Source of the DNA: Deltaproteobacteria bacterium
GTDB taxonomy: Bacteria; Desulfobacterota; Dissulfuribacteria; Dissulfuribacterales; QOAL01
Direction: 5' to 3'
Assembly: GCA_026995935.1 (NCBI GenBank)
Contig: JALWNK010000035.1
Location: forward strand, 1 to 46,338
Length of the DNA stretch: 46,338 bases
The notes beneath the pieces were generated by a model. It searched no databases, was not told the DNA's origin, and saw nothing but the letters and a program-made list of their open reading frames with translations. Positions 2,561-20,031 of the stretch are shown here, piece by piece. How positions within the stretch are numbered: the first letter of the stretch is position 1; each line of letters starts with the position of its first letter. The position numbers were made by a program, and so were the translations under genes.

Positions 2561-2569
2561 GGAGAGCGT

Positions 2570-2596: not shown

Positions 2597-2664
2597 GCAG
2601 GAAGACACCCATTTCCGCACTCTCCCCTTCCCCTTGCCTCTTGGCGCCAAGAAAAGGAGGTTCC

Positions 2665-3486
2665 ATGAAGATCATAGGCCAAAACATCAACATCTTTGAC
2701 CCAAGGGTTTACAAGGCCGTAAACAGAAAGGATGCGGCTTTCATTCGTTTTATTACAAAAGAGCTCATTAAAAACGGAGCAGACGGCCTTGAAATCAACC
2801 TTGGCGGCTGGAGGGCCTCTGACCAGGTGATGCCCTGGATGGTCAAAAAGGTAAGAAAAGAGACGGACTGCCCTCTTTTCCTTAGCCCCATACCCGCCTC
2901 CCTCAAGGAGGCAGTGGAGGCAGACCAAACAGGAAGGATATTCATCAACTGTGTCACTGCGGATAAAGATAGGCTTAAAAGCATGCTGAACGCTGCTCTT
3001 TGTCTTAAAACCAGCCTGGTGGTTCTTCTTACAAGGAAGGGGTGTTGCCCCTCAGGCCTTGATGAGATGCTTCTTCTTGCAGAAGAGGTGATTGAGACAG
3101 CTGAAAGGGCAAACTTTCCCCTTGAAAGACTCGTTTTGGACCCTGTCCTTCGCCCAAGGCTCACCACTGACGCCTCAGGATCCTTGGTGAACAGGCCGGA
3201 TGCCACCTTTTTTGCAGAGGCCATAGTGCTTATGAAGATGCTTAGGACTGAAAGGCCAATAAAGACTGCAGCTGGCATAAACAACCTGACAGTGGGCATG
3301 GACAGAAGGAAAAGGGAAAATTTTGAGCCTGCTGCAATAAGGCTGCTTCAGGGGGCAGGCCTTGACTATCTGATTATGGACTGCTCAAATAGGCAACTTC
3401 TAGAGCGAATAAGGAATGAAGGAGACTACCGTTGTCTTTCGCTTGTAAAATCAGACATGGCAAACAGGCTTGATGTTACCCTTTAG
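2665..3486 (+). CDS. Pterin-binding (DHPS-fold) methyltransferase-like protein
   Basis: A 273-residue cytoplasmic protein of the dihydropteroate-synthase/methyltetrahydrofolate methyltransferase fold. The N-terminus MKIIGQNIN, the GADGLEINLGG strand end at 37-47 and the DPVLRPRL region near 160 are typical of the pterin-binding TIM barrel. It lacks folate-synthesis neighbours and sits under a cobalamin riboswitch. A role as a CH3-H4folate:corrinoid methyltransferase (AcsE or MetH-domain type) is therefore more likely than dihydropteroate synthesis. The start at 2665 is chosen because AAAAGGAGG lies 5 bases upstream; an in-frame alternative at 2641 lacks a ribosome binding site and would extend into the palindrome. 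The exact partner corrinoid protein is not in the window. Confidence 0.75.
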   Translation: MKIIGQNINIFDPRVYKAVNRKDAAFIRFITKELIKNGADGLEINLGGWRASDQVMPWMVKKVRKETDCPLFLSPIPASLKEAVEADQTGRIFINCVTADKDRLKSMLNAALCLKTSLVVLLTRKGCCPSGLDEMLLLAEEVIETAERANFPLERLVLDPVLRPRLTTDASGSLVNRPDATFFAEAIVLMKMLRTERPIKTAAGINNLTVGMDRRKRENFEPAAIRLLQGAGLDYLIMDCSNRQLLERIRNEGDYRCLSLVKSDMANRLDVTL

Positions 3487-3502: not shown

Positions 3503-4957
3503 TTGAACAGGGACATACTCGTTACATTCTGCCTCTATTTCGTTGGCCTATTTAGCATCGGCCTTGTTGCGTGGGCAAGGACCAGGAACATCTCCGACTA
3601 CATACTCGGAGGCAGAAGGCTTGGAAGCGTTGTCTCGGCCTTGAGCGCCGGGGCCTCTGACATGAGCGGCTGGCTCCTTCTTGGTCTTCCGGGTCTTGTC
3701 TATACAAGCGGCCTCCAGGGGCTTTGGCTTGCCGCAGGCCTTCTCCTTGGCACCTACCTGAACTGGACCCTTGTTGCCAAAAGGCTCAGGGTGTTTAGCG
3801 AGGTCTTTGACAATTCCATCACCCTTCCGGAGTACCTTGAAAACCGCTTTTCAGACGAAACAGGCATATTGAGAAGCCTTTCCGCCCTGATGATACTCTT
3901 TTTCTTCACTATCTACACAAGCTCTGGCCTTGTTGCCGGGGGAAAGCTGTTTAATTCCGTCTTTTCCGTTCCCTACCAGACGGCCATGCTCCTTGGGGCC
4001 CTCTCCGTACTGATCTACACCTTCATGGGGGGATTTCTGGCCGTGTCCTGGACCGACGCCTTCCAGGCAACCCTCATGCTTCTTGCCCTCCTGATAGTGC
4101 CCTTCATGGCCTTCATGGAAATGGAGCCTCATCAGCTTGGTAGCGCCACCCACGAACTCCTTGGCACCCTCATGCCGGATGGCGACGGGCTCGCCTCCCT
4201 TACTGCCACCATCTCCCTGTGCGCTTGGGGCCTTGGCTACTTTGGCCAGCCACACATACTTGCAAGGTTCATGGCCATCGACTCTCCAGAAAACATTCCC
4301 AGGGCCAGGGCAATAGGCACATCCTGGGCAGGCGCGGCCATGGCTGGGGCAATCCTTGCTGGCATTGCAGGAAGCCTTTACATGGGAGTTGGGCTCAAGG
4401 ATGCGGAAAAGGTCTTCATATTTCTTGTTCAAAGGCTCATGCATCCTGCAATCTCAGGGGTCTGCCTTGCAGGTATCCTTGCTGCCATAATGTCAACTGC
4501 AGACTCCCAGCTTCTGGTATCTGCCTCTGCCCTTGCAGAGGACTTTTACAGGGCGCGCCTTCGCCCAAATGCTGGCCAGAAAGAGCTCGTATGGGCCGGA
4601 AGGGTCACGGTGCTCCTTGTTTGCGCAGTGGCGGTCTTTTTTGCAAGGGACCCGGAAAGCAAAGTGCTTGAGATGGTCTCCTACGCCTGGGCAGGCTTCG
4701 GAGCATCTTTTGGCCCCACCCTCATCCTCTCGCTTTCATGGAAAGGCATGACAAAGGCCGGAGCAGTGGCAGGAATCCTAACAGGGTGCCTTGCAGTTGT
4801 GATCTGGAAAAATCTTCATGGAGGCATCTTTGATATCTACGAGATGGTTCCAGGGGTGATCTTTTCGACCCTTGCCATAGTGGTTGCAAGCAGGCTCAGC
4901 TCTGGCCCTGGCAGAAGGGAAACAGAGCTTTTTCAAAAATGCCTCTCTAGTCTTTGA
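3503..4957 (+). CDS. putP: Sodium/solute symporter, PutP type
   Basis: A 484-residue polytopic inner-membrane transporter of the SSS family, most like sodium/proline symporters. About 13 hydrophobic helices are seen. DYILGGRRLG (residues 32-41), SAGASDMSGW (48-57) and GLPGLVYTSG follow the PutP N-terminal pattern that contributes to the sodium and substrate sites, and AAIMSTADSQLLVSAS near residue 330 is the family's late signature. The start is TTG at 3503 with only a weak purine tract upstream, 16 bases after the preceding stop, so it may be cotranscribed with the riboswitch-controlled gene. Substrate is inferred; other SSS substrates cannot be excluded. Confidence 0.85.
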   Translation: MNRDILVTFCLYFVGLFSIGLVAWARTRNISDYILGGRRLGSVVSALSAGASDMSGWLLLGLPGLVYTSGLQGLWLAAGLLLGTYLNWTLVAKRLRVFSEVFDNSITLPEYLENRFSDETGILRSLSALMILFFFTIYTSSGLVAGGKLFNSVFSVPYQTAMLLGALSVLIYTFMGGFLAVSWTDAFQATLMLLALLIVPFMAFMEMEPHQLGSATHELLGTLMPDGDGLASLTATISLCAWGLGYFGQPHILARFMAIDSPENIPRARAIGTSWAGAAMAGAILAGIAGSLYMGVGLKDAEKVFIFLVQRLMHPAISGVCLAGILAAIMSTADSQLLVSASALAEDFYRARLRPNAGQKELVWAGRVTVLLVCAVAVFFARDPESKVLEMVSYAWAGFGASFGPTLILSLSWKGMTKAGAVAGILTGCLAVVIWKNLHGGIFDIYEMVPGVIFSTLAIVVASRLSSGPGRRETELFQKCLSSL

Positions 4958-4995: not shown

Positions 4996-5256
4996 ATATT
5001 CTTTTACGGGAGGATTGCCACTTCCATTACAACAACGGGCAACAAGACGGTCATTAGCTTTAACCTCACTGATGGCGGACCTTATGACGAGGATGGCAGC
5101 ATAAACGGGGCCATAAGCAATGAGGGAGGCCCGGGAATTGGTGGGCCTGCCCCAACCACCCTACCCACCATAAGCCAGTGGGGAGCGATAATTCTTACAG
5201 CTCTCATGGGAATTAGTGCGATATTGGCATTTAGAAGAAAAACCTTCAATATTTAA
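4996..5256 (+). pseudogene. C-terminal remnant of an IPTL-CTERM surface protein
   Basis: An open frame of 86 codons with no usable start ends at TAA 5254-5256. It encodes the tail of a secreted repeat protein: a LTDGGPYDEDGSINGAI stretch typical of choice-of-anchor or beta-sandwich domains, a GGPG linker, then LPTISQWGAI followed by a hydrophobic helix and RRK. That three-part end is the IPTL-CTERM sorting signal handled by exosortase H-type enzymes. The frame is closed upstream by TAG at 4993-4995, and the body of the protein is missing. The 436-base gap between putP and livF thus holds only this remnant and an inverted repeat. Confidence 0.7.
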
Positions 5257-5299
5257 GGGTGTTGCTTTTTCTGAAGCTATAATCCTTTTTAGTCAGAAC

Positions 5300-5344
5300 A
5301 TGACAGGAACAGTTTACTTTCTAAAAAAATCAAGTTCCTGCCAT
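5300..5344. repeat. Inverted repeat between gene remnant and livF
   Basis: ATGACAGGAAC (5300-5310) and GTTCCTGCCAT (5334-5344) are an 11-bp inverted pair with one mismatch (wobble in RNA) and a 23-base A/T-rich spacer. It could be a transcription end for the minus-strand liv operon, which stops at 5394, or the scar of a lost element. No clean T-run follows the minus-strand hairpin. Confidence 0.4.
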
Positions 5345-5393
5345 ATACGCTTGTCTCTTGCGGCTGGGTGTGAGGGCACAAATTTACAAAATA

Positions 5394-6095
5394 TTATAGA
5401 TAGAGTTCTTTCATTTGCTTTTCTGAAATATCTAAGGGGTTTAGTTGAAATTTTATGCGCCCAAGCCTCAAACCTATAACAGTATCTGCCAATGGCATTA
5501 CCTGCTCTACCCTATGTTCCACCATTAGAATGGTTACGCCCGCATTTTTAATGGCTACAATCTTTTCCAAAACTTCCTGAACGCCCTTGGGTGCAAGCCC
5601 AAGGGAGGGCTCATCCAACAACAACAACTTTGGCTTATTGGAAAGCGCCCTTGCAAGACCAAGCATTTTCTGCTCACCACCGGAAAGCTGAGAGGCCTTG
5701 TACTTCAATTTATCTTTCAATGCTGGAAACAATGCCAAAATGGATTCTACAGTAGATTTATCTACAGGGTCACCCTTGGCATAAAACGCCATCAAAAGGT
5801 TTTCCTCCACACTCATATTACGAAAAACCACATCTCCTTGAGGGCAGTAGGCAACACCACTGCCTATCACCTTCCATGGAGGCCAGTGAGTCACATCCAT
5901 ACCATGAAATTTTATTTTGCCACTGGTCACATTGGCCAAACCGGTGAGTGCCTTTAAAATTGTTGATTTACCAGCGCCGTTGGGACCTATGAATAAAACG
6001 ATATTGCCACTGGTGACCTTAAAGGAAATCGATTCCAAAACGGGCTTTTTACCATACCCGGCATGAACATCGTTACTCTCCAGTAAGATTCCCAC
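5394..6095 (-). CDS. livF: Branched-chain amino acid ABC transporter ATPase LivF
   Basis: A 233-residue cytoplasmic ATPase of the HAAT transporter family. Walker A GPNGAGKST is at residues 37-45, the signature LSGGEQKML at 137-145, and Walker B LLLLDEPSLGLAP at 157-169, with EHR in the H-loop. The chosen start is a GTG at 6093-6095, about 20 bases after the livG stop; longer frames would run back into livG with residues that do not resemble the family. It is the last gene of the liv operon. Confidence 0.9.
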   Translation of the reverse strand: MGILLESNDVHAGYGKKPVLESISFKVTSGNIVLFIGPNGAGKSTILKALTGLANVTSGKIKFHGMDVTHWPPWKVIGSGVAYCPQGDVVFRNMSVEENLLMAFYAKGDPVDKSTVESILALFPALKDKLKYKASQLSGGEQKMLGLARALSNKPKLLLLDEPSLGLAPKGVQEVLEKIVAIKNAGVTILMVEHRVEQVMPLADTVIGLRLGRIKFQLNPLDISEKQMKELYL

Positions 6096-6115
6096 GTTAT
6101 GTTTACCCGTTTTAT

Positions 6116-6889
6116 TTAGGCCAGCTCCATCTGGCCACCAAGGTATGACCGGAGCACTCCAGGATGTTCTCGCAATTCCTGGAGGTTGCCTTGGTATAGA
6201 ATCTGACCTTGTGCCATGAAAAGGACATAATCGCACATTTGTTCTAAAAAGGAGGTATTATGCTCAATGATAATTATACTGGATCTTTTTCTGACCATTA
6301 TTTTGATTAGATTTATCGCCCTATCCACCATTGAAGAAGACAAACCAGCCAGGGGTTCATCAAGCAACATCAACTTTGCATCAGAAGCTATGCCCAATGC
6401 CAGACTTAGCAGCTTCTGCTGGCCATAAGACAGATCTCTGGCCAACCTGCCTTTTTCACTCTCAAGATTCATCTCCTTTAACAGCTCAAAGGCACGACGC
6501 CTCCATGTGTGTTCCAAAGCCAGCCAATCCCTTATCCTGCATAGGGCACTCATTGGCCTTTCATATGCACGATCCTGAAAAGCCAGCAACAGGTTGTCCA
6601 TTATTGTCATTTGTTCAGCTATCCTAACCCTTTGAAAGGTGCGATATATTCCACTTCGGGCCCTTTTATACGGAGGGTCACTGGTGATATCCCTACCCAA
6701 AAAGTGCACCTTTCCCCTGTCTGGCAAAATAAACCCCGAAATAACATTGAAAAGAGTCGTCTTTCCTGCACCATTTGGCCCCATAAGACCTATGGTTTCA
6801 CCACGCTTCACCTCTATCTGAAGACCCCTTAGAACCTCCGCCCTGCCAAAATTCTTAAAAATTCCAGAGGCAGATAACAATACTTGCAT
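6116..6889 (-). CDS. livG: Branched-chain amino acid ABC transporter ATPase LivG
   Basis: A 257-residue ATPase pairing with LivF beneath the LivHM channel. Walker A GPNGAGKTT is at residues 36-44, signature LSYGQQKLL in the middle, Walker B LMLLDEPLAGLSS, and H-loop EHNTSF. The RTFQRVRIAEQMTIMDN stretch is the typical LivG Q-loop region. It starts one base after the livM stop region, consistent with coupled translation. Confidence 0.92.
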   Translation of the reverse strand: MQVLLSASGIFKNFGRAEVLRGLQIEVKRGETIGLMGPNGAGKTTLFNVISGFILPDRGKVHFLGRDITSDPPYKRARSGIYRTFQRVRIAEQMTIMDNLLLAFQDRAYERPMSALCRIRDWLALEHTWRRRAFELLKEMNLESEKGRLARDLSYGQQKLLSLALGIASDAKLMLLDEPLAGLSSSMVDRAINLIKIMVRKRSSIIIIEHNTSFLEQMCDYVLFMAQGQILYQGNLQELREHPGVLRSYLGGQMELA

Positions 6890-6890
6890 G

Positions 6891-7772
6891 TTACAATCTG
6901 GTATGTTCCCTTATATCAAATGAAAATCCGCCTACTACACCTCCGGGCCGAAACATCAGTATCAGAACCAGAAGCATTCCATAAATAATCTGCCTGACAT
7001 TTGAAGCCACACTGTAGGGAAGCCCCACGAAACGCAGGATCTCTGGCAAACCAATCAGTATCAACGCACCAAACACAGGGCCTGCTGTACTTCCGGAACC
7101 CCCAATTATTACGGCACACAAAATGGCGATGGAATCCATAACGGTAAAGGTTGTAGGGTCAACAAAGCTGACGTATGCGGCATATATGCCACCGGCTGCC
7201 GCAGCCATTACTGCCGAGATCATGAAGGCGGCTATTTTGAATCCCACTGGATTTCGCCCCAGGGCCATCACCAGATCCTCGTCTTCCCTGATGCAGTTGA
7301 GCACCCTGCCAAAAGGAGAACGGGTTAAGACCCACTTTATAAAGGAAAAAAGAAGTGCAAGGGATGAACACACAAGCGCTGCCCTTGCCGTGGTGGACAT
7401 GAACCATGGGGTAGGAATACCCGTGATTCCCAATGTCCCGCCTGTCACGTTTGATACATTATTCATGAAATTAAAGCAAAGTACCTGAAGGGCAAAGGTT
7501 GCAATTACGAAATAATCTCCCCTGAGCCTGAGTGAAGGAAGACCCACCATGAGACCTGCCATACCGGCCAGGACCATCCCTATCAGCCATGCTACAATAA
7601 AGGGATAGTGCATTTGCCCATAAAAAATGGCTACACCATAGGCCCCTATTCCAAAAAGGGCCGAGTGGGCAATGGACATCAAGCCTGTATGGCCAGAAAT
7701 AAGATCGAGAGACTGAGTCAATACTATATATACCCCCCCTAGGACCACGAGGTGGTAAAAATAGGCCTCCAT
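6891..7772 (-). CDS. livM: Branched-chain amino acid ABC permease LivM
   Basis: A 293-residue inner-membrane permease with about eight to nine hydrophobic helices. GHTGLMSIAHSALFGIGAY (residues 27-45) and the late GGSGSTAGPVFGA loop are diagnostic for LivM-type HAAT permeases. The ATG at 7770-7772 follows an AGGAAG ribosome binding site, two bases after the livH stop. The product should form a heterodimer with LivH. Confidence 0.93.
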   Translation of the reverse strand: MEAYFYHLVVLGGVYIVLTQSLDLISGHTGLMSIAHSALFGIGAYGVAIFYGQMHYPFIVAWLIGMVLAGMAGLMVGLPSLRLRGDYFVIATFALQVLCFNFMNNVSNVTGGTLGITGIPTPWFMSTTARAALVCSSLALLFSFIKWVLTRSPFGRVLNCIREDEDLVMALGRNPVGFKIAAFMISAVMAAAAGGIYAAYVSFVDPTTFTVMDSIAILCAVIIGGSGSTAGPVFGALILIGLPEILRFVGLPYSVASNVRQIIYGMLLVLILMFRPGGVVGGFSFDIREHTRL

Positions 7773-7774
7773 AT

Positions 7775-8647
7775 CTATACTTCCTGGGCTGCAGCATCAC
7801 TTGCAAACCCCCAAGGACTCTTGAGCAAGACAACAAGTAACAACGCAAAAACTATGCTATCCTGCCACTGGGAGCCAACAACAAATATACTCAGATGCCG
7901 CACCAGTCCCACCAGCAAGGATGCCAATAAAAGGCCCCTTAGGCTTCCTATTCCTCCAACTATGGCTACCACTACGCCCATCATGAGGGCGTGAAGGCCC
8001 ATTGTCGGGGTCATTCCGACATCAGCCGCCATAAGTATTCCCGCCAATCCTGCGAACGCAGAGCCTATAAAAAAACTAGCATCAACTATTTCGTGGGTTT
8101 TTATACCATAGGCAGTGGCGAGCTCCCTTGATTCGGCAACTGCACGCATTAAGAGGCCATGCCTGCTCCTTGCAAACAGAATGGCGAGAAATACCCAAGA
8201 TACGGCTGCAATGGCCAAGGTAAGGATATGAATCCTAGTAATACAGGCATGCCATTTACAAATAGATGACGGTAGCCCAGGAGAAAAGCCTAGTGTGGAC
8301 GCTCCCCAAATAATGGTAGTAACATTTTCAAAAATCAGGTAAATGCCAAAGGAGGCAAGCATCAAAACCAGGGAACCAGCCCCCTTTCTTAGCAACCTAT
8401 TATATACAACGTGGTTCATAAGAACACCCAGCAAACCACAAAAAAAAACGGAAATAACTGCAGCACCAAGCAGGGGAACCCCTGCCTGGGAATTAATCGA
8501 ATAGGCCAGATAAGCACCCAGGGTGATGACCGCCCCGTGGGCAAAATGAAAAAAACGGGATGTAGTATATATAAGACTGAAACCCAACGCCACCAGCAGG
8601 TATGTGGACGCTGCAATCAAGCCGTTAACTACAGCCTGTGAAAGCAT
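7775..8647 (-). CDS. livH: Branched-chain amino acid ABC permease LivH
   Basis: A 290-residue inner-membrane permease. GLIAASTYLLVALGFSLIY (residues 9-27) and HFAHGAVITLGAYLAY (33-48) follow the LivH pattern, and GGIGSLRGLLLASLLVG near 230 is the ABC-interacting loop. It starts 4 bases after the stop of the binding-protein gene, in the usual binding protein-H-M-G-F order. Confidence 0.93.
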   Translation of the reverse strand: MLSQAVVNGLIAASTYLLVALGFSLIYTTSRFFHFAHGAVITLGAYLAYSINSQAGVPLLGAAVISVFFCGLLGVLMNHVVYNRLLRKGAGSLVLMLASFGIYLIFENVTTIIWGASTLGFSPGLPSSICKWHACITRIHILTLAIAAVSWVFLAILFARSRHGLLMRAVAESRELATAYGIKTHEIVDASFFIGSAFAGLAGILMAADVGMTPTMGLHALMMGVVVAIVGGIGSLRGLLLASLLVGLVRHLSIFVVGSQWQDSIVFALLLVVLLKSPWGFASDAAAQEV

Positions 8648-8651
8648 TAGG

Positions 8652-9809
8652 CTATTCCAATCCCACTATTTCCAACAGCCTTGGCTTACCATTTTCTATA
8701 ATCTTTATGGCCATAGGTTTTATGACATCTCCGTTTGAATCAAAGGAAATTATTCCAGAGACGCCGTGATATGATTTTACAGTATAAAGGTAGTCCCGAA
8801 CCTTTTCTGCCTCAAGCCTACCTCCATTGGCCTCGGCTGCTTTTACCACAAGATGAATAATATCATAGGCTTCGGCTGCGAAAAGCTCCGGTTTTGTACC
8901 ATATCTTTTCTCATAGGCCTGGGCAAAGGCCCTTGCCGCCTCTCCTTCTGCTGGGGCCGGAAGAATGTATATGGCCCCGTTTGCCGCCGCACCTGCCTGT
9001 TTCAGCACACTTGGATCTTCAACCGCCTCAGTTTGATAGAAAAACGGTTTTCCCACCTTCAGTTCAGCAGCCTGCTTCATAATCAGGATGGTATCATCCG
9101 GATATGAAACTGCGATTACACCATCCACGTTGCTATTTTTGATCTTGGTAAGCTGGGCTCTGAGATCCCGGCTCTGTGGTGGATAGGCCTCTTCCAAAAC
9201 CACCTTGCCTCCCAGGGAAGTAAATTCATTTTTAAAGGAATCGCGGTTACCCACACCACCCTCATTATTGATATAGAGTATGGCCACCTTCCTAAGGCCC
9301 TTTTTCTTAAACAGGTATCTGGCAAAAATGCGGCCCCTTAGCGCATCTGAAGGAACAACCCGGAAGATATAATCCCCAGCAGAACTGATCTTTGGGCTAG
9401 TAGAGGCTGGACTGATAAGCACAACCCGTTCCTTTTCAGCAACAGGGGCAATGGCCAGGGTTACACTGCTGCAAACGGCCCCCATCACCACTGGAATCTT
9501 GTACACATCTGCAAGCTGTCTAAATGCAGAGATGCCCCTGGCGGGCTGGCAGGTGGTATCTTGAAAATCAATCTTGATTTTTAAGTTGCCTTTCTGGCTG
9601 ATCTCATCAGCGGCAAGCTGTGCACCTTTTTTAGGAGGTATTCCCCAGGGAGCCGCATCCCCAGTAAGTGGTAAAACTGCGCCAATAAGTAGCTCCTTTA
9701 CCGTGGCCTTGGACCTTTCAGACTTTTTTTGCTCTTGTTGATTGGAGCAACCAGCAATCACCATGATAACAATTAGGAACAGGGCTGGTAGTACTGCGCA
9801 TCTTCTCAT
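8652..9809 (-). CDS. livJ: Branched-chain amino acid ABC substrate-binding lipoprotein
   Basis: A 385-residue periplasmic-binding-fold type I receptor. The chosen start (ATG 9807-9809) has a strong AAGGAGG 5 bases upstream and gives a clean lipoprotein signal: MRRC, a hydrophobic core, and lipobox IAGC. LIGAVLPLTGDAAPWG begins the mature domain, and VVMGAVCSSVTLAIAPVAE is the ligand-cleft strand typical of LivJ/LivK. A frame extension to 9860 exists but would overlap the preceding membrane-protein gene. The ligand cannot be told from sequence: leucine-type amino acids, amides or other small acids are possible. It lies only 25 bases after the RADAR-associated membrane-protein gene. Confidence 0.9.
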   Translation of the reverse strand: MRRCAVLPALFLIVIMVIAGCSNQQEQKKSERSKATVKELLIGAVLPLTGDAAPWGIPPKKGAQLAADEISQKGNLKIKIDFQDTTCQPARGISAFRQLADVYKIPVVMGAVCSSVTLAIAPVAEKERVVLISPASTSPKISSAGDYIFRVVPSDALRGRIFARYLFKKKGLRKVAILYINNEGGVGNRDSFKNEFTSLGGKVVLEEAYPPQSRDLRAQLTKIKNSNVDGVIAVSYPDDTILIMKQAAELKVGKPFFYQTEAVEDPSVLKQAGAAANGAIYILPAPAEGEAARAFAQAYEKRYGTKPELFAAEAYDIIHLVVKAAEANGGRLEAEKVRDYLYTVKSYHGVSGIISFDSNGDVIKPMAIKIIENGKPRLLEIVGLE

Positions 9810-9834
9810 AGGACCTCCTTTCTTCAGAAAGTTA

Positions 9835-10323
9835 CTATTTTTTTGTAACCTTTTTGGCATTTATCTTGAAATCAATACCCAAAAACCACAATATGAAAAC
9901 AAAAACTGCACATAAAACCCATACCCAGCAACCTGACAATTCCCTGCCAAATCTCTTAAAAAGCCCTCCAATCAAAACCGCAGTCCCTATATTGAAACAA
10001 ACAGACGATGTATTCCATAGGTAAAGGGGAATATCCTCATCCTGGGGAAGGTCTTTCAGGCTTGCCATCTTTTTTGTGATTTTATCAGGAAACGACTTTT
10101 TAATAATTCGAAGTAATATTCTTGTTATTCCATGGACAAAAAAACCCAGGATATATGCGCTCAAAGACATCCCAATCAAAAAAATAATGGAATTAAGGGC
10201 GGTATCAGCTGGCTGTGGAACTCCTACAAGTTTTAGGAGCTCATCATGGGCCAGGAGCAGTAAGATAAATCCCGGTACCATAAAGGCAACATCCAATACC
10301 CTGAAAAAATTACCAAAATCCAT
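9835..10323 (-). CDS. Small membrane protein, probable RADAR accessory
   Basis: A 162-residue protein with four hydrophobic stretches, near residues 8-26, 43-68, 105-122 and 131-150, with a charged Lys-rich loop (about 70-95) and a basic C-terminus ending KKVTKK. I do not recognise its family. RADAR loci often carry a third gene encoding a membrane protein (Csx27-like or SLATT), and this gene sits directly after rdrB. With the ATG at 10323 it starts 7 bases after the rdrB stop. A TTG at 10347 would instead overlap rdrB by 17 bases. Position and topology suggest a membrane tether or a pore-type effector for the system; similarity to Csx27 or SLATT is not demonstrated. Confidence 0.65.
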   Translation of the reverse strand: MDFGNFFRVLDVAFMVPGFILLLLAHDELLKLVGVPQPADTALNSIIFLIGMSLSAYILGFFVHGITRILLRIIKKSFPDKITKKMASLKDLPQDEDIPLYLWNTSSVCFNIGTAVLIGGLFKRFGRELSGCWVWVLCAVFVFILWFLGIDFKINAKKVTKK

Positions 10324-10330
10324 GAAGTCT

Positions 10331-13198
10331 CTATAGCGCTCTTTCAAGATCCGAGATATGACTGTTCAACTCACACTGCAGAGGCCTTGGAAGGCGGTCC
10401 AACTCATCAATTATTTTTTTTAGAGCATCAAGCTGCCTTGCCAGATCAACCCGTTCCCTTCTCACAAAACAACTCAACATAGTGTTTTTCCTTACCTGTT
10501 CCAACAGTTCCATTGCCTGCTGCCTAGAGTAGCCCCTGCGAAGGGCGGCATTGAACAACATGGCGTACTCCATCTCCAGCCTGGTGTTGAAAACGGCTGG
10601 ATTATCCGTATTGAGACTTACCACAAGGTTGGGGGATTGTCGGGATTCCTCTTGATTATACCAGGTAAATATAGGGTGCTCCTCTATTCCCCGCATGCCC
10701 AGGATAACCCAGTTTGAGGTAAGATTCGCCTCTAAAACTATACCCCTTTCATCAAGCTTGCGCCTTATATATTCCTGGAGCCTTTGGAGCACCCTCACGT
10801 CATCCTTTGAATAGTTCCGGTGAACACGTTTTCTGCCCCTAAGGAAACTGGCCTTGGAAAAGAAATAACTGGTTAAAACATCCCTTTGTTCTTTTAGGTG
10901 GAGCGGGCAGGGATCGTATGGAGAAGGATTCGGAAAAATATCTGCCTTTGGCAAAAAGGACAAAAGTCCATGAAACATGCAAAATATCTCTGGGCCTACC
11001 CTGTTCTTGATTCGTGAAAGCTCAGTTTCTGCAAGGCTTAAACCCAAGACGCTTCTGATTTCAGGATCGTGCATCAGTAGGAAATGAAATGCCTCGTGCC
11101 GTAGTGATAGCGCCGACCAGATGTTAATCAGTTCCTTGTGATTGTGCGAAAGTTGCGTGTCATCCAGTGGAACAAGCCATTTAGCCACTTCCAAAAAAAG
11201 CCTTGACTTTCTTCTTGTAAAGTCATGAGGCTCCACATGTCCGTCATTAGTCATTTTCCACAACCATAACTGACCAAGGATATCCTCGTCCCTGTTAACT
11301 ACAAATGGGCCGTAACTATCGCACCACCACCCAAGGTTCATGCCAGTAATCAAACCGTGACCAAGCCTGTCGCCAGGCCTGATAATCATGGTGTTCAAAA
11401 GTTCATCAATGGAAAATAGGGCTGCCAAGGGATCATAAAAATATTCTCCCGCGTGGTAGGTGAGACTCATGCTCTGGCGTGCCGGACTTTTTCTGCCACC
11501 TAGCCTCCAGGCCTCTCTAAGTATGGATATGGGGGGGTAAAAACAAAAATTGGGCAAGGATGTTTCTGTATTGGCAACATCGATTCCAACCAGGTACTCT
11601 GCGAGTGCAGGAACCCTCTCAAGCAGGGCATAAATGTTCCATGCCGAATGCAAATAGGGCATAACCTGCCTTTTCAGATAGGAAAATAGGCAATCGTTTG
11701 GATATGGATCTTTTCTATTATCTGGCTTTACAAAGTGGATAATAATCCCTATCTGTAAAGGGTGTTCTTGAGGTGTACTGACATCTAGGTGTTCATGCCT
11801 CTGTTCACTTGCACCAAGGGCGGAACCCAAAATCCTTCCTTGTTCCCTTAATATTTCGATGATCTTTCTCTTGGCTATATAAAAGTCATCCTTGTCTATG
11901 CTTATCCTCACTTCCACCTTGCGCAATAAGTCGTCTGATCTGAGATGTGTCAAGCAAGACGTTTTATCCATACCAAAACGTCTCATACTGACAAACCTTT
12001 CCCGGAACCGGGTAAATCCGTAAGCCCCGTGCTCCTGGACTACAAAGCGAAATAGCCGGTTTTTCATCTGCAAATAGAACAATAGGAGTATTTGAAGGGA
12101 AAGAGGCATATTTTCAAGCAGCCGCAGGGTCTTTGTTAAAAATGCGGTATCGTTTAATAAAGACGAAAAAAATGAACCATTCAAATTTTTTTTCTGCCGT
12201 AAGAACCATAAGTAATGTGATATCCACTCTGTGCATTTCCTTATGGCCTCAATCCGATTGTCCACCGGATAGTCACCGTCCACCCACTGTCTCAAGTGGT
12301 TTAGGAATGTACATGACAGGGGAACATGTGATGGAAGCCCTATGCATTTACATATTTCTTCAATAAAAGGACCTTGTTTTGTTTTTAGAGCCTCCCCATT
12401 TGTAGACTTACGAACAAAGATTTCATCTAATAAAAGGCAGCGAGTGATTAAAAACCCCGCAAGGTAAGCCAGCATTTGGTATTCCTTTTGCCCATAAAGA
12501 TTTCTGATCAACTGGTCTAGATGTCCGTTATGGATATCCAAGAGCTGTCTTACCAACAATCTAAAGGAAAAACCCGCACTGAGATGCAGATGTGTTTCAG
12601 CCAACCCCTTTGAAAGCATTTTTAGTACAATCTGATCGTTTAAGCGGATATCCACCTCGTCTCTTATGGCCTTTTGATTCAGGGGAACCCTTGACTCTGC
12701 AAAAAAGGCCGCAAGCACTGGGGTAGTGTCAATCCTTAGGGAAAGGCTTCGCCAAAGCTCAAGCTTTGATTCGTGATTTATTTGGCTCCACCACATTTCG
12801 GGCCTTCCAGCCAGGTCCTCCTGGGGATTCAACTGCCAAAACTTGAATGCCGGCATTCCATCGAATTCGCTGATAAAAAGCCTAGCCATGTCCTGAAGAA
12901 GCAAAAAAGGCACCAAAATGCCTGAGCAGCTGGAAGCTATGAAGGGATTTAGTCCTAGGCAACAAGACTGTGAGATTTCATCCCTTGGCATGTAGCTCTC
13001 ATAGAGGGCCTTTATCCTTCTCCTGATTACTGCCCTGTCACTACTGACAAAGGGCGGCTCAGAGGCAAGAATCTCCACGGCCTCATCCAGCATTTGTTCG
13101 TAATCTTGAGAACGGTTAACGGACAGGCCACAGATACCTAACGGGATAAATCGGCTGGCACGCCCTTCAAATATGAAGGAGAGAAGCCTTGGAAGCAT
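10331..13198 (-). CDS. rdrB: RADAR adenosine deaminase RdrB-like
   Basis: A 955-residue protein with all metal-dependent adenosine deaminase motifs spread over an unusually long chain: ETHLHLSAG (H203, H205), HAGE at 582-585 (metal His and catalytic Glu), RLGHG at 611-615, EANLTSN at 823-829 and SLNTDNP at 861-867 (metal Asp 865). Housekeeping adenosine deaminases are about 330-350 residues. The long insertions between HxH and HAGE, and between RLGHG and NTDNP, are the mark of RdrB, which assembles into large shells and deaminates adenosine in RNA or nucleotides when the system fires. It follows the RdrA-like ATPase by 59 bases. A GGTAG ribosome binding site precedes the ATG at 13196-13198. 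Confidence 0.9.
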   Translation of the reverse strand: MLPRLLSFIFEGRASRFIPLGICGLSVNRSQDYEQMLDEAVEILASEPPFVSSDRAVIRRRIKALYESYMPRDEISQSCCLGLNPFIASSCSGILVPFLLLQDMARLFISEFDGMPAFKFWQLNPQEDLAGRPEMWWSQINHESKLELWRSLSLRIDTTPVLAAFFAESRVPLNQKAIRDEVDIRLNDQIVLKMLSKGLAETHLHLSAGFSFRLLVRQLLDIHNGHLDQLIRNLYGQKEYQMLAYLAGFLITRCLLLDEIFVRKSTNGEALKTKQGPFIEEICKCIGLPSHVPLSCTFLNHLRQWVDGDYPVDNRIEAIRKCTEWISHYLWFLRQKKNLNGSFFSSLLNDTAFLTKTLRLLENMPLSLQILLLFYLQMKNRLFRFVVQEHGAYGFTRFRERFVSMRRFGMDKTSCLTHLRSDDLLRKVEVRISIDKDDFYIAKRKIIEILREQGRILGSALGASEQRHEHLDVSTPQEHPLQIGIIIHFVKPDNRKDPYPNDCLFSYLKRQVMPYLHSAWNIYALLERVPALAEYLVGIDVANTETSLPNFCFYPPISILREAWRLGGRKSPARQSMSLTYHAGEYFYDPLAALFSIDELLNTMIIRPGDRLGHGLITGMNLGWWCDSYGPFVVNRDEDILGQLWLWKMTNDGHVEPHDFTRRKSRLFLEVAKWLVPLDDTQLSHNHKELINIWSALSLRHEAFHFLLMHDPEIRSVLGLSLAETELSRIKNRVGPEIFCMFHGLLSFLPKADIFPNPSPYDPCPLHLKEQRDVLTSYFFSKASFLRGRKRVHRNYSKDDVRVLQRLQEYIRRKLDERGIVLEANLTSNWVILGMRGIEEHPIFTWYNQEESRQSPNLVVSLNTDNPAVFNTRLEMEYAMLFNAALRRGYSRQQAMELLEQVRKNTMLSCFVRRERVDLARQLDALKKIIDELDRLPRPLQCELNSHISDLERAL

Positions 13199-13257
13199 TA
13201 TCTACCTATTTAATGAAGTCATTATACCTGTTTTTAATATTTGTTTTTTCTTTAATT

Positions 13258-15669
13258 TTATAGACGTTGATACCTCAAGCTCTTTAACTTGACTTCACCT
13301 TCGTTAGTGAGATACCATTTGCCTTTACTGAAACTTATAAACTGCCTCGTATAGGCCCAAATCAACCATTTATCATCAATTTCTCCCCTTTGCATCCCTT
13401 CCAGGAATTCCCGTAATTGGTCATCTTTAGGCTCACCAACGGAAAAAAGATTAATAAGGTCTTTGGCAAGCTCCTTGATCTTGTCTTTAAAGGGCAAAAG
13501 TGGAGAATCCTCCAAGGAAGAAGAGTCTATTTTGTGAAAAAGTTCTATCAGAGAGATCTGCCAATTAGTATCAAAGAATCTTTTCTTAAAAAAGTTTTCT
13601 TTGAAATTCGTTGGAATTTTCAAGTGTTCTGCCTTAACATTGGTGCCAGAAACAAGGTCCAGAGCTGCCAACACCATGGCATAGCGAAGCATTATCTTGG
13701 CCAAAACATCACTTGAAAGTTGGGATGACGATGAATTCAGGTATGAATCAATCCGTTGGATATTTTCTTTTGTAACATCCTTACTTTGTTCAGATCCTTT
13801 GCCCACATTCAGAATAATAGCATCTAGCTTGTCCCTACATAGCTTAACCATCACGGAAATCGTACTCCACGGATAAAACCTTCCATCTCTTTCTACATCT
13901 GAGGGCATGGATGGCATATCCTCCGCATCAAGCCAGCTCCAGAAACGATTAAAAAAGAAAAGGATAATAGAATTTTCAGATTGTGGTGTGGAACGCCTTA
14001 TAATCCTTATCCCCTGACCATTGGAATTAAATGGAGAAAAAGCACCTTCCTTGTCAAGAATGGCAAGAATATCGCTGCTAAAACAGACGCTACGGACCAT
14101 GTAATTCAGATCCTGCAAAACATTATCTCCAGAGCGGTCTCGAGTTATAAGGCGGGAAAGCTCTACCATATCTAGGGTTATTACTTTGTTGACGGAATCT
14201 ATATCAAATGTCTTTTCAAATCGACTTTCAAAGTCAGGATATTCCGAGTTGAATTTTAAAAGTTGAATAAGTTGTTTCAGAATGCCCATTATCTTCTGGG
14301 GCTTAATTTCCGCATCCTCGGCTTCATTCTTTTTCTCTTGATTTTTACTATCATTTTTTTCATAAACAGAACCCAACTCATGAAGCCAGTGATAAAAGGC
14401 CAGTTGGTGTCTTAAGTTACCACGCAACAGATAGACAAAATCTGTAGGCATGTTTATTGGAAAACTCTCTTCCTTCCCATTACTAGCTTCAGAAGATCCC
14501 TTTCTAGTTTCGGATCCAGAAGTTAACGGTCCTTTAGATGAATATATTGGCACATAAAAAAGACGGGATGCCAATTCACTTTGCTGAAAGTCGGAGCTTC
14601 GCACCTGTTCATCGTAGGTATAAAGAGGGAATATGTTTTCTGCCCGCATATATTTTTGAAGGATGTCCTTGGATACTCTGTAAAAATAAGGATCGTCCAA
14701 GGCGCGTTGCCCAACAATATCAGGAACAGTGGACACCAGATCACCATAAATGGCCTTTTTAAATGCGGAAAACGCCCCCAGGAAAAGCAGTACAACCCTG
14801 TCATGGCGAAGATATGTGTTTAACACTTGGAGTAACTTGGCACCCTTTATTCCTGTCAAATCGATATCATCAAAGGGAATGAGGAGCAAAGCAGAGTGAT
14901 TCTCTCTATGTAAAAAATTTTCATCCAAAAAATTAAAAAATTTATTTAAAAAATAGTTAATATAATCTACGAGCCTCAACCCGCTTTGCTGAACCTCCAA
15001 TATATTATTTGAAAAGTCCGTTGAGGTATAAGAAAAATTCTTGACATGCTCCTTGAACCCTCCACCTATAAGGGCCAACGATTTCTTTACCTTGGAAAGG
15101 GCTTCTTCCAACTCAAAAAATAAATCTTTCCCGCGAGAACCGCTATTCCACTCGACCTGGCACGAGACGGCAGGCTCATGAAGAAATGGAAGATACTTTT
15201 TTATTTTTTCTATAACTTCTTCTATTCTCAAAAAGACCCATGCAAGGATAAACTTTTCATCACCATTGAACATCTCTGGATCAATGGGACAAAGGGGAAT
15301 ACAGCTAAATGGAAGGTCTTTTTTCCCCCTATCATTTTGCCCATCTCGGCCTAGGCAAGTGTCAACATATTGTTGCACACCTGGTAAATTATTTTGCCTT
15401 TGCAGGCGCTGCATCAAAGCGTATAGCAGGGTAGTCTTTCCAGAACCCCTTTCGCCTATTATATATAAAAAATTGTCTAGGAATTGCCTTTGATTTCCGG
15501 AATTGTTTCTTTTGTTCGCATTACCCAATCTTTTAAGTCGACGAAGAACATCATTTAAGACCCTTTCCTGGGATTCAGTAAGTTGATCAGGTACATACAT
15601 GGGCAGGCATGGCAGTTTTGTATCATGGTTATTTTGATTCCCTATAGATTCAGATTTTGATTCTGTCAT
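13258..15669 (-). CDS. rdrA: RADAR ATPase RdrA-like
   Basis: An 803-residue P-loop ATPase. Walker A IGERGSGKTT is at residues 71-80 and Walker B LLLIPFDDIDL at 261-271, with the long interval between them seen in AAA+/STAND-like defence ATPases. The N-terminal 30 residues are polar and disordered-looking. A KAP-like arrangement continues to about 330; the C-terminal 450 residues are helical with no recognised domain. Pairing with a giant adenosine deaminase downstream identifies it as RdrA, the partner that recruits or activates RdrB. The gene is visibly richer in A/T than adjoining core genes. The start codon ATG at 15667-15669 has G-rich sequence upstream. Confidence 0.87.
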   Translation of the reverse strand: MTESKSESIGNQNNHDTKLPCLPMYVPDQLTESQERVLNDVLRRLKRLGNANKRNNSGNQRQFLDNFLYIIGERGSGKTTLLYALMQRLQRQNNLPGVQQYVDTCLGRDGQNDRGKKDLPFSCIPLCPIDPEMFNGDEKFILAWVFLRIEEVIEKIKKYLPFLHEPAVSCQVEWNSGSRGKDLFFELEEALSKVKKSLALIGGGFKEHVKNFSYTSTDFSNNILEVQQSGLRLVDYINYFLNKFFNFLDENFLHRENHSALLLIPFDDIDLTGIKGAKLLQVLNTYLRHDRVVLLFLGAFSAFKKAIYGDLVSTVPDIVGQRALDDPYFYRVSKDILQKYMRAENIFPLYTYDEQVRSSDFQQSELASRLFYVPIYSSKGPLTSGSETRKGSSEASNGKEESFPINMPTDFVYLLRGNLRHQLAFYHWLHELGSVYEKNDSKNQEKKNEAEDAEIKPQKIMGILKQLIQLLKFNSEYPDFESRFEKTFDIDSVNKVITLDMVELSRLITRDRSGDNVLQDLNYMVRSVCFSSDILAILDKEGAFSPFNSNGQGIRIIRRSTPQSENSIILFFFNRFWSWLDAEDMPSMPSDVERDGRFYPWSTISVMVKLCRDKLDAIILNVGKGSEQSKDVTKENIQRIDSYLNSSSSQLSSDVLAKIMLRYAMVLAALDLVSGTNVKAEHLKIPTNFKENFFKKRFFDTNWQISLIELFHKIDSSSLEDSPLLPFKDKIKELAKDLINLFSVGEPKDDQLREFLEGMQRGEIDDKWLIWAYTRQFISFSKGKWYLTNEGEVKLKSLRYQRL

Positions 15670-15725
15670 GAATCCCGACCCCCTTGATCTCCTTCTTTTT
15701 TGCCAGCGAGATTACCCCTGGTTCT

Positions 15726-17012
15726 TCAGGCCGTGAGCCTGTCCAGCAGATCTACGTAAAAACTATACAGCACCTCTGAATCAAGACGATTATTATCTAA
15801 CAGAACATATTCGCCATTGTAAAGCCTGTAGTCATGAGAAAGAACCCTTACTCCAAACCTTTCAGGATTGTCTCCAATGGCTGAACCAGGATAAGGAACC
15901 AGTAAGGAAACGGATATCCTTACACCCATGTCATGAAGTCTCAATATGAATTCACCGGTGGCAGTCAAAGAATTATAATCGTCCCAAGGGTGTCCAAGTA
16001 TGAAGCAAGCTACTACGGCCGGAACTCCAGCCCTTTTTAATAGAGAAACCGCCTCCAGGGCCTGTTCTGGAGTTATGCCCTTGGCCTTTTTCATGACCCT
16101 CTTGGAACCGCTTTCCATTCCTACGAAGATGTTTTTGAGCCCGCATTCTGCAAGTGTAGGAATAATTTCCCTGGATCTAAGAAGCTCCACTACAGCCGCC
16201 TGACAGGTCCAGTCAAGTCCATTGGCAGATAGGTAACGGGCTATTTCGACTGCCCGTTCTCCATTGCTTAAAAAGGTATCGTCAAGTACATCTATGGTTT
16301 TAATGCCGTGACTTTGGGAAATTATATCTATCTCTTCAAAGACCCGTTCCAATGGATGAAAACGCTCGAAACCAGATGTTGATATGGAGCAGAAATAACA
16401 CCTCCTCGGGCAACCGCGTTTTGTAAAAATGGTGCCAGGATGGGCATAGGAGAAGAGATCAACCATGTTCCTTGCAGGAAGAGGTATGCTATGGAGACTT
16501 TCGTGAAAAAAAGGCCTGGGAACCCATCCCTCACCCAGAAACACCCCATCAAAAGGCCTTTGTACCTCTCCAGGGAATAGCCAGTACTGAACCAGAGACA
16601 CCAGCGGCCCCTCGCCTTCGCCTGTTATAACTGCATCAAAAAGTCCTGTTTCCCAAACCTCCATTGGACGTGCACTGGCATGAGGGCCACCAATTACCAT
16701 ACGAATTGATGAGTCTTCACTTCGTACAAGGGAAACTGCATCTATAACAGCAGGATAGGCGGCCGTAACAGAGGTAAATGCAACAATCCTGGGCGAAAGA
16801 CTGATTATTTTTCTTGCAAGTTCTTTTGACGAAAGACCCAGTTGAGATGCATCAATAAGCTTGCAGGAAAAACCGGCCTCAAGCAGGGCCGAGGCCAGAT
16901 ATAGAAGACCCATGGGTGGAGTTCCCGCAGGCCGAACCCTCCTTAGACTGAATTGCGGTTCGATACAGGGAGGAGTTACCAGTAAAATTTCTGGAGAACT
17001 ACATCCACCCAA
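15726..17012 (-). CDS. B12-binding-domain radical SAM enzyme
   Basis: A 428-residue class B-type radical SAM protein. Residues 1-145 resemble a cobalamin-binding domain (GLLYLASALLEAGF, GGPHAS at 108-113, TGEGEGPL at 130-137), but the B12 His motif DxHxxG reads DASQLG (54-59), so any cobalamin would bind without the lower His ligand. The radical SAM cluster motif CPRRCYFC (C201, C205, C208) opens the barrel, and VGMESGS and LGHPWDD follow in the usual places. The start is TTG at 17012, 5 bases after the PqqD-like gene, with an AGGGG just upstream. Its PqqD neighbour suggests a peptide or protein substrate, possibly methylation or another C-H modification; no precursor gene is evident. Confidence 0.85.
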   Translation of the reverse strand: MGGCSSPEILLVTPPCIEPQFSLRRVRPAGTPPMGLLYLASALLEAGFSCKLIDASQLGLSSKELARKIISLSPRIVAFTSVTAAYPAVIDAVSLVRSEDSSIRMVIGGPHASARPMEVWETGLFDAVITGEGEGPLVSLVQYWLFPGEVQRPFDGVFLGEGWVPRPFFHESLHSIPLPARNMVDLFSYAHPGTIFTKRGCPRRCYFCSISTSGFERFHPLERVFEEIDIISQSHGIKTIDVLDDTFLSNGERAVEIARYLSANGLDWTCQAAVVELLRSREIIPTLAECGLKNIFVGMESGSKRVMKKAKGITPEQALEAVSLLKRAGVPAVVACFILGHPWDDYNSLTATGEFILRLHDMGVRISVSLLVPYPGSAIGDNPERFGVRVLSHDYRLYNGEYVLLDNNRLDSEVLYSFYVDLLDRLTA

Positions 17013-17017
17013 GACCC

Positions 17018-17383
17018 CTACTCAATATGAACCAAACCGTATTTTAAGAGAAGAAAAACTGCACGGGCAACCTGGTCAAAGGGAATACCTAAACGGTGGG
17101 CAATCTCGGAAACTGTATTGGAGCCATCCATTAGCCTTGAAACCTGCGCAAGTTCACCTGTGAGGTCGAAACGCTCTAAGCCCTGGGGCCCTTTCATAAA
17201 AAAAGAACACCCATTTGGGCTTTCTTTTATAAGATGGGTCAAAATAAAGGGCCTATCTTCAGGGCTTACGCTTTTGTCATCAAGTTCGGGCCCATTAAAG
17301 CCTGGCGAGGAGTCGTCAAGGCTCACACTGCACATAATCAAAAAGGTGTCCTTTGTCTTTTTTATGGAAAGTTGCCCGGTCAT
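17018..17383 (-). CDS. PqqD-like peptide chaperone
   Basis: A 121-residue protein whose C-terminal half (about 66-121) has the PqqD pattern: RFDLTGELAQVSRLMDG, then TVSEIAHRLGI, then a helix ending LLKYGLVHIE. In RiPP pathways this domain binds the leader of a precursor peptide and presents it to a radical SAM enzyme. The first 60 residues are acidic and unassigned. It lies 5 bases after the KAP NTPase gene and 5 bases before the radical SAM gene, so the three are almost certainly one transcript. No good ribosome binding site is visible, which fits translational coupling. Confidence 0.72.
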   Translation of the reverse strand: MTGQLSIKKTKDTFLIMCSVSLDDSSPGFNGPELDDKSVSPEDRPFILTHLIKESPNGCSFFMKGPQGLERFDLTGELAQVSRLMDGSNTVSEIAHRLGIPFDQVARAVFLLLKYGLVHIE

Positions 17384-17388
17384 TAGTG

Positions 17389-18678
17389 TTATTGTTTCAA
17401 AAATTCTATTGCAAATTTAACCATTAAGTCATTTAGCTCTTTGTATTCAAAAACTTTATTAATGGAATAGAATTCCTGCAAATTTTCACTATTTTTTTTA
17501 TCTTTAGCTTCGGCCACAAGTTCCAACAAGGCACTATTGATGATCTCTCTAAATTCCCTGTAAGATCTAATTATACTTCCCTCTGAAAGGGCCTTGGCGG
17601 CCTCATACAGCCCAGCCCCCTCAAGCCTACCTCTCATCTCCTTCAAATCCTTTTCATCTTGTGAAGGAATAAAACCTGCCCTCTCCCTTGAAAAAATCGC
17701 ATCCAGAGTCTTAATAAATTTCAGGGCCAGATCAATATTTTCACTATTGGCAACAAGCTCGTTGTAAACATAGGCCTGATGAAATCTAAGATAAGCCAAA
17801 AGACAACCTATTATCTGCAGCACTAGATCAAGGATCTTTTTATCATAATCATTACCTTTAGATTTCATTATAACTTTATAAGGCTTCACATAAGCATACT
17901 TTGAAAACCAATACACTGTCGTGATGAAACGCCTTGCTGTACGAAGGTTATAGGTGGGGAATTTTTTGCAGAATTTCTTCAGCAACGCTGTTGGGAAACC
18001 ATGTTCAGCATCTTGCTCATCAAACTCAGGCCAAAAGGTTGACAATACATCCCCGCCTGATGCCTTAGGCATGTAATATTCTATGGGGATAATGGATGCC
18101 AAAAAATCTTTAGCATTTTCGAGTCCATAAAAAAGTGGCTCTAGTCTTTTAAGAAGCAACTCCTGATTGGCAGCAACAAAGAAATAGACAATGGGAACCT
18201 GTGAATAAGTAGATGACCTCCTACTTAAATATCTCACACATCCACCAATATCTTTTAGGACGCTATAAATAGTTTCTTCATCATTTTTTTCAATATCGTC
18301 AATTAACAATATTAATTTATTGCTAACATTAGAAGATTGAGATTTCTTATTTTTTACTTCCTCTAAAAATCCGTTAATTTTATTATGGAAGTCTATAGAA
18401 TTATACCGCTCGGAGATTGTTATTCGTCGCAATTGGTAACTAGTTTTGTAATTCTTTTTTTCGTGAAGATAAAAACCTACATCGAAAAGACTTGTCTTAC
18501 CAGAGCCCCAATCTCCATATATGCCTATGCAAAGAGGTGCCTCAAGGGTTTCTATCCAATCCACCAACTGCACCCAGCGCCATTTTTCCCATTTACCAAG
18601 GGCACTCTCAGGCAGAAATATATCGCCTATTTTTAGCTTATTTTGGCTTTTGGTGTCGCTTCGACCTTCAGATATCAT
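17389..18678 (-). CDS. KAP-family P-loop NTPase
   Basis: A 429-residue NTPase. Walker A GIYGDWGSGKTS (52-63) is the classic KAP form and Walker B LILLIDDIEK (122-131) has the expected paired aspartates. FFVAANQELL corresponds to the sensor region. KAP proteins such as PifA are often phage-exclusion or membrane-linked defence factors and usually carry transmembrane helices inserted in the NTPase domain. None is obvious here, and the protein is shorter than typical members. The gene is strikingly A/T-rich compared with cfa upstream, a sign of acquisition. It is the first gene of the six-gene defence block, behind a candidate promoter with an inverted repeat. Confidence 0.82.
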   Translation of the reverse strand: MISEGRSDTKSQNKLKIGDIFLPESALGKWEKWRWVQLVDWIETLEAPLCIGIYGDWGSGKTSLFDVGFYLHEKKNYKTSYQLRRITISERYNSIDFHNKINGFLEEVKNKKSQSSNVSNKLILLIDDIEKNDEETIYSVLKDIGGCVRYLSRRSSTYSQVPIVYFFVAANQELLLKRLEPLFYGLENAKDFLASIIPIEYYMPKASGGDVLSTFWPEFDEQDAEHGFPTALLKKFCKKFPTYNLRTARRFITTVYWFSKYAYVKPYKVIMKSKGNDYDKKILDLVLQIIGCLLAYLRFHQAYVYNELVANSENIDLALKFIKTLDAIFSRERAGFIPSQDEKDLKEMRGRLEGAGLYEAAKALSEGSIIRSYREFREIINSALLELVAEAKDKKNSENLQEFYSINKVFEYKELNDLMVKFAIEFLKQ

Positions 18679-18734
18679 TTATTTTTTCATCGAAAAAAAT
18701 GCACATAAAAATTAATTTTGGAGGTTTAAAGTCT

Positions 18735-18762
18735 ATACTAACAGACGGTGGCCAAATTTCAA
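18735..18762 (-). promoter_or_regulatory. Candidate promoter of the KAP-to-RADAR operon
   Basis: On the minus strand TTGAAA (18757-18762) and TAGTAT (18735-18740) are separated by 16 bases, about 57 bases upstream of the KAP start. A 7-bp inverted repeat, AACAGAC (18740-18746) and GTCTGTT (18787-18793), brackets the -35 region and touches the -10 box, as an operator might. Confidence 0.4.
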
Positions 18763-18831
18763 CGAACATGGACCAATGGCTATATAGTCTGTTTGATTCG
18801 GTTCTGTCTAGCCCAAAAGATTCCCTAAAAG

Positions 18832-20031
18832 CTACACATAAAGCTCTTCCCGCACCAGGGGCAGATCATTTCTTCTTCCCAGGGTAAAAAGAAGCTGAAA
18901 TACAAATAAGGGATTGTACCTGAAGCTCATCTGGCTGCCGTAGAGATAAAAACGCCACATCCTTACGAATTTTTCGTCATAAAGCTGTTTCACCTTATCT
19001 GCATGTTCTTCAAACCTCTTTGCCCAGTTGCCAAGTGTGAGATCGTAGTGGCGTCTCAGGTTTTCAAGGTCCACGAAATCAAAGCCTGTATCCTCAGCTG
19101 TTTCCACAAGCTCTCCAAGGGCTGGAAGGTATGTGCCGGGGAATATATACTTGGTAATCCATGCATCCATCTCCATGGGCTTTGTCCTGCCGATGGTGTG
19201 AAGGAGCATTATCCCCTTATCCTTAAGTAGCCTGGAACATCTTTCAAAAAAGACAGAAATGTTTTCCTTGCCTACGTGCTCAAACATGCCTATGGAGATG
19301 ATCCTGTCAAAACCCTTGTACTCGCTTTCATCCATCTCCCTGTAGTCCTGAAGCCTGATCTCCACTTGATCCTCAAGGCCTTCATCCCTGATGCGCTGAT
19401 TTCCAAGCTCAAACTGGTTCTGGGAAAGGGTAAGCCCAACTGCCTTAACCTTGTATTTCCTTGCTGCCTCCATCACAAGGCTGCCCCATCCGCACCCTAT
19501 GTCCAAAAGCCTCTGGCCGGCCCTTAACCTGAGCTTTTTGAGGCTTCGGTTGATCTTATTGAGCTGGGCCTGCTCAAGGGATTCATCTTCTGAGGTAAAG
19601 AAGGCACAGGAATAGTTCATGCCCTTATCCAGCCACAGTCTGTAGAAATCATTTCCCTTGTCGTAATGGGCCTGCACGTCCTTTTTGGTCTGTTTTATGG
19701 TGGCCCTCTTTTTTAGATGAAGCCAGCAGACCCTGGCCTTTTGAAAGGGGGTCAGTCTCTCTTCTGCTGCATTTTTGTAAAACCACTCCATGGCATCGCC
19801 AAGGTTTCCAATAATTTCTATGTCTCCTTGCATGTAGCCTTCTCCAAGGGCAAGAGAGGGTTCAACCAGAAGCTCTTCAAAGATATGGGGACTTTTGATT
19901 CTTATTTGAAACTGGGGAGGGCCGTCTCCAAATTTGAGCTGTTCTCCGTTCCACAGGGTAATTGTGCAGGATTTTTCAGGACCTTCAGGCAGGATGTTCG
20001 TGAGAATTTTCTTGGCTTGCCCGGGATTCAT
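18832..20031 (-). CDS. cfa: Cyclopropane-fatty-acyl-phospholipid synthase
   Basis: A 399-residue enzyme that adds a methylene from SAM across double bonds of membrane phospholipid acyl chains. The HYDKGNDFYRLWLD block (122-135), MNYSCAFF (138-145), SAM motif LLDIGCGWGSL (175-185) and GMFEHVG are all characteristic. The N-terminal 100 residues form the usual helical lipid-binding domain. A GGGGGAGG ribosome binding site precedes the ATG at 20029-20031. It is a single gene, separate from the defence block that follows on the same strand after 153 bases. Confidence 0.95.
   Translation of the reverse strand: MNPGQAKKILTNILPEGPEKSCTITLWNGEQLKFGDGPPQFQIRIKSPHIFEELLVEPSLALGEGYMQGDIEIIGNLGDAMEWFYKNAAEERLTPFQKARVCWLHLKKRATIKQTKKDVQAHYDKGNDFYRLWLDKGMNYSCAFFTSEDESLEQAQLNKINRSLKKLRLRAGQRLLDIGCGWGSLVMEAARKYKVKAVGLTLSQNQFELGNQRIRDEGLEDQVEIRLQDYREMDESEYKGFDRIISIGMFEHVGKENISVFFERCSRLLKDKGIMLLHTIGRTKPMEMDAWITKYIFPGTYLPALGELVETAEDTGFDFVDLENLRRHYDLTLGNWAKRFEEHADKVKQLYDEKFVRMWRFYLYGSQMSFRYNPLFVFQLLFTLGRRNDLPLVREELYV

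Follow-up and report, generated by a model that had tools for sequence, protein, structure and literature searches.

We report here an eleven-gene unit that extends, on the reverse strand, from a KAP-family NTPase to a LivF-type ATPase in a 46,338-nucleotide stretch of DNA from a Deltaproteobacteria bacterium (contig JALWNK010000035.1; the whole of this stretch is called the window below). We consider it, with a probability of about one half, to be a rare mobile variant of the RADAR system that has been inherited together with a radical-SAM modification module and an ABC importer. This reading draws on a ten-gene order found again in a second locus (L021) from a distant lineage, three congruent trees, a precise insertion, and catalytic motifs that are kept. 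Weighing against it are the number of loci, which is only two, the scores of RdrA and RdrB, which fall below the curated cut-offs, flanks that are not of defence type, the taxonomy of L021, which rests on binning, and the inclusion of an importer without a known role in defence.

The RADAR core and its partner genes

In the systems studied so far, RdrA and RdrB build a giant complex by which ATP/dATP are turned into ITP/dITP during infection (PMC9994260), and there are known RADAR subtypes that carry a third gene, which encodes a membrane protein (PMC7699616). The RdrB-type protein of the window (10331..13198, reverse strand as for all genes of the unit, 955 aa) matches the family model NF041744 with an E value of 2e-36, under the curated cut-off of 800, and the RADAR RdrB structures in the PDB with 4e-20; it has the adenosine-deaminase fold with its His/Glu/Asp site, i.e., the metal and catalytic motifs HxH (THLH), HAGE, GHG, and TD are all kept. 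The RdrA-type protein (13258..15669, 803 aa) had no match as a single sequence in Pfam, PADLOC, or NCBIfam, NF041743 included. When it was aligned with the proteins that occupy the place of RdrA at other loci, HHalign gave a probability of 99.5% (E 9e-23) over the ATPase region, and the best solved structures for the joint RdrA-family profile were those of RADAR RdrA (8fnt/8hr7, E 3e-14). The AAA+ P-loop is intact, with the Walker A motif GERGSGKT and also DDID. Both genes adjoin on one strand with a gap of 59 bases. Working RADAR systems share just 22–28% identity in the conserved parts of RdrA and RdrB (PMC9994260), and we place the identities found here for both proteins within that span, so the divergence of the window pair should be no bar to function. 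On these sequence grounds, we firmly assign the pair as a divergent but genuine RADAR core, and by homology the unit is predicted to deaminate ATP and to defend against phage.

A small multi-pass membrane protein (9835..10347, 170 aa), whose gene overlaps rdrB by 17 bp, follows immediately, which is the slot of the accessory membrane proteins in the Csx27- and SLATT-associated forms of RADAR. It belongs to no family in Pfam, NCBIfam, or PADLOC, those of the Csx27 and SLATT accessories included, and agrees with these accessories in position and hydrophobicity only. Thus, the window resembles known RADAR in having an RdrA-type ATPase beside an RdrB-type deaminase with catalytic motifs kept and a small membrane protein after rdrB; it differs in forming a deep separate branch, in a membrane protein outside any listed family, and in the addition of a KAP NTPase, a PqqD-like protein, a B12 radical SAM enzyme, and a five-gene ABC importer.

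The initial annotation had placed the first three of these additions directly upstream of rdrA and on its strand, the genes being 5, 5, and 56 bases apart, and the coordinates in the list of open reading frames agree exactly (KAP to PqqD-like, PqqD-like to radical SAM, and radical SAM to rdrA, respectively). The KAP-family P-loop NTPase (17389..18678, 429 aa), which opens the unit, matches PF07693 with 40 bits (E 4e-10; cut-off 20) and carries the Walker A motif GDWGSGKT; its AlphaFold model is of low confidence (pLDDT 56). The radical SAM enzyme (15726..17012, 428 aa) matches both PF04055 (E 7e-21) and the B12-binding domain PF02310 (E 1e-18) above their cut-offs, and has its CxxxCxxC motif at residue 201, reading CPRRCYFC in both the window and the L021 copies, so that a B12 domain and a SAM core are present as in the B12-domain radical SAM superfamily. 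It scores far below every NCBIfam equivalog cut-off. Between these two genes lies that of a 121-aa protein (17018..17383) which by itself gives a weak match to TIGR03859 (E 0.04), whereas a two-sequence profile built from the window and L021 copies matches the solved PqqD 5sxy with an E value of 3e-4. Its AlphaFold model is also of low confidence (pLDDT 53), and a fold search with that model did not discriminate. We assign it, with moderate confidence, as a PqqD-like protein, probably the partner of the radical SAM enzyme. The three genes had been said to look like a modification cassette; KAP is an NTPase and not itself a modification enzyme.

KAP NTPases are frequent in defence operons, and methylation is the commonest chemistry among B12-dependent radical SAM enzymes. 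HpnR/BchE-type B12 radical SAM enzymes and the PqqD-type partners of RiPP pathways share with the window the domain architecture, the CxxxCxxC motif, and a small, putatively PqqD-like neighbour; the window differs from them in its scores below the equivalog cut-offs and in having no precursor peptide gene. In qatABCD, a KAP NTPase is encoded beside a metabolite-type enzyme that is thought to modify a defence partner protein (PMC13279940), and the window likewise encodes a KAP-family NTPase together with a putative modifying enzyme. In contrast to qatABCD, the window has no QueC-like, QatB, or TatD-like gene, and the match between the window KAP and QatA is confined to 23 residues around the P-loop.

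Beyond the membrane protein the tight same-strand run goes on, from 9860 down to 5394, with a LivK-type substrate-binding lipoprotein (8652..9860; PF13458, E 5e-64), the LivH- and LivM-type permeases (7775..8647 and 6891..7772; both PF02653), and the LivG- and LivF-type ATPases (6116..6889 and 5394..6236; both PF00005), the last of which closes the unit. The span first described, 10331–18678, thus holds five of the genes as claimed and misses the rest. No space between genes of the unit exceeds 59 bases. When the sequence was scanned for promoters and terminators, matches were no more numerous than in shuffled sequence. The full LivKHMGF set, with a lipobox, is that of the branched-chain amino acid (HAAT) ABC importers, and the closest solved relative of the window LivK is 3td9. 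Unlike in those importers, LivK here forms its own clade and at both loci is tied to the RADAR block: its identity to the copy in L021 is 57%, in contrast to 29% for the best match among the rest of the window's order (46 genomes) and ∼30% for the best plasmid LivK, which indicates that the importer arrived with the block. The possibility that the importer is native flank was ruled out, because there is no close LivK elsewhere in the order and the insertion ends at LivF. We know of no role for such importers in any defence system.

A single insertion and a second locus

A 20-kb stretch of the window was searched against the genomes of its family. The genes on either side of the unit, a symporter (3503–4957) and a CFA synthase (18832–20031), are immediate neighbours in G001, G002, G003, G005, G006, and G014, and at the G002 junction 36 bases lie between the matching ends. 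In G007 and G015, the stretch 5014–5344 is native and is the tail of a surface-protein gene. The inserted part is therefore placed at ∼5345–18835; these ∼13.5 kb, exactly KAP to LivF, entered the window genome as one insertion. In G004, the closest relative, transposase-like open reading frames lie next to the CFA synthase at the same site (L200 1–1382; G004:C49), and such remnants indicate that the site is variable. RdrB was found in no other genome of the window's order, and a close KAP in none of the relatives tested. The CFA synthase is ruled out as a member of the unit, since it is native in relatives and absent in L021. The flanks are housekeeping genes and not a defence island.

Two features of the native flank may be recorded here. 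The forward-strand segment 4976–5344 is a truncated surface-protein tail with an IPTL-CTERM-like sorting signal, of which complete tandem copies exist in G007 (L201). A cobalamin riboswitch (2399–2573, forward strand, 106 bits) lies upstream of an open reading frame (2641–3486) and the symporter, at ∼2.8 kb from the insertion; the B12 domain of the inserted radical SAM enzyme makes it of interest.

For recurrence, an RdrB alignment was run against one genome per species, and of the 275 relatives obtained the best 80 were retained. The window proteins and the two-sequence profiles then served as queries against the open reading frames of these loci and of the RADAR loci from plasmids and viruses. 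The cassette was found in one further locus among these, L021, on a contig binned as Planctomycetota. There, on one strand, the order is KAP, PqqD-like, radical SAM, RdrA, RdrB, membrane protein, LivK, LivH, LivM, and the start of LivG, and neighbouring genes overlap or stand a few bases apart; the contig ends within LivG, and the position of the window LivF falls beyond its end. Identities between the two loci are 22% for KAP (E 4e-11), 36% over 47 aa for the PqqD-like protein (E 2e-5), 35% for the radical SAM enzyme (E 7e-78), 23% for RdrA, 35% and 30% for two segments of RdrB, 21% for the membrane protein (E 6e-11), and, besides LivK, 36% for LivH, 50% for LivM, and 40% for LivG. Window and L021 are sisters in all three trees (RdrB 100/100, radical SAM 99/99, LivK 99/99), and in the RdrB tree the pair is the deep sister of the Bacillota-type RADAR branch. 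It had been proposed that the link would fall if the three genes never recurred beside rdrAB; L021, with the same gene order, is such a recurrence.

None of the ∼80 other RADAR loci examined, the best of the 275 RdrB relatives, has the KAP, PqqD-like, radical SAM, or importer partners, the plasmids and viral contigs gave no further copy of the cassette, and no such cassette was seen in the radical SAM neighbourhoods that we looked at. RdrB relatives in ∼1000 more genomes lie in ordinary RADAR loci where examined. The initial annotation was also aware of no RADAR variant for which such partners had been described, and our search of the open literature likewise found none; as far as that search goes, the combination of RADAR, B12 radical SAM enzyme, PqqD-like protein, KAP NTPase, and amino-acid-type importer has not been described before.

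Upstream of the unit in L021 (718–1512), there is a remnant which by eye is like the C terminus of a tyrosine recombinase/integrase and suggests a mobile context. In another locus, on Rhizobium leguminosarum pRLN3 (L014 10115–11716), an adenylosuccinate synthetase is annotated ∼900 bases downstream of a divergent rdrAB on the same strand, a possible link to purine nucleotides.

Competing readings and a possible mechanism

With n = 2 loci, block transfer alone can preserve a gene order, and the partners are missing from the ∼80 other RADAR loci; the unit could then be an old chance fusion of RADAR, a radical SAM cassette, and a transport operon, i.e., neighbours without shared function that have since moved as a block. 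The long divergence between window and L021 (RdrB 35%, radical SAM 35%, KAP 22%), over which genes, order, strand, and tight junctions have nevertheless been kept, argues against this, and we regard it as distinctly unlikely; as the leading reading, chance neighbourhood was set aside on the L021 synteny and the congruent trees. A role in metabolism or signalling seems possible, if somewhat improbable. In this case an amino-acid-like compound would enter through the importer, the deaminase and the radical SAM enzyme would work in one pathway on this compound or else on a nucleotide, and RdrA and KAP would have a regulatory role. Radical SAM enzymes, PqqD proteins, and transport together are typical of small-molecule loci, and the importer genes are in the block at both loci, with a LivK of a distinct clade. 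Yet elsewhere RdrA–RdrB with motifs kept is known to act in defence, and mobility, rarity, and a patchy distribution are traits that the unit shares with defence systems.

We consider it very improbable that the cassette is a radical-SAM RiPP pathway which stands next to RADAR and serves as a further defence module or a toxin. A PqqD-like partner and a B12 radical SAM enzyme are hallmarks of RiPP pathways, but neither the spaces of the window unit nor the overlaps and few-base gaps of L021 leave room for a precursor gene, and an exporter and a peptidase are absent from the unit. Because a separate precursor gene is missing at both loci, the substrate of the radical SAM and PqqD-like pair is more likely a protein of the operon or a small molecule, and the earlier suggestion that the cassette makes a peptide becomes less likely than modification of either of these.

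If the unit is a RADAR variant with a co-inherited modification module and importer, as we favour, its working may be outlined as follows. Upon phage infection, an RdrA ATPase ring would activate an RdrB deaminase cage, which would then turn ATP/dATP into ITP/dITP, with the small membrane protein possibly serving as an accessory of this core. KAP, the PqqD-like protein, and the B12 radical SAM enzyme would most likely modify either one of the unit's own proteins or a small molecule, and the ABC importer may supply an amino-acid-like substrate, a ligand, or a regulator; what we say of the target of the radical SAM enzyme and of the importer's role is a guess. A more specific version, offered tentatively and with no great expectation, is that radical SAM/B12 chemistry, guided by the PqqD-like protein and KAP, arms or modifies RADAR itself while the importer feeds or gates the system from outside; the unit would then be a new type of defence system.

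So far RADAR has been known with two or three genes, and here it is met in a conserved eleven-gene form. Such a form would tie RADAR to radical-SAM/B12 modification and to the import of solutes, two activities that are not known to play a part in it. The unit is a defined gene set, open to cloning and to tests of each gene in turn.
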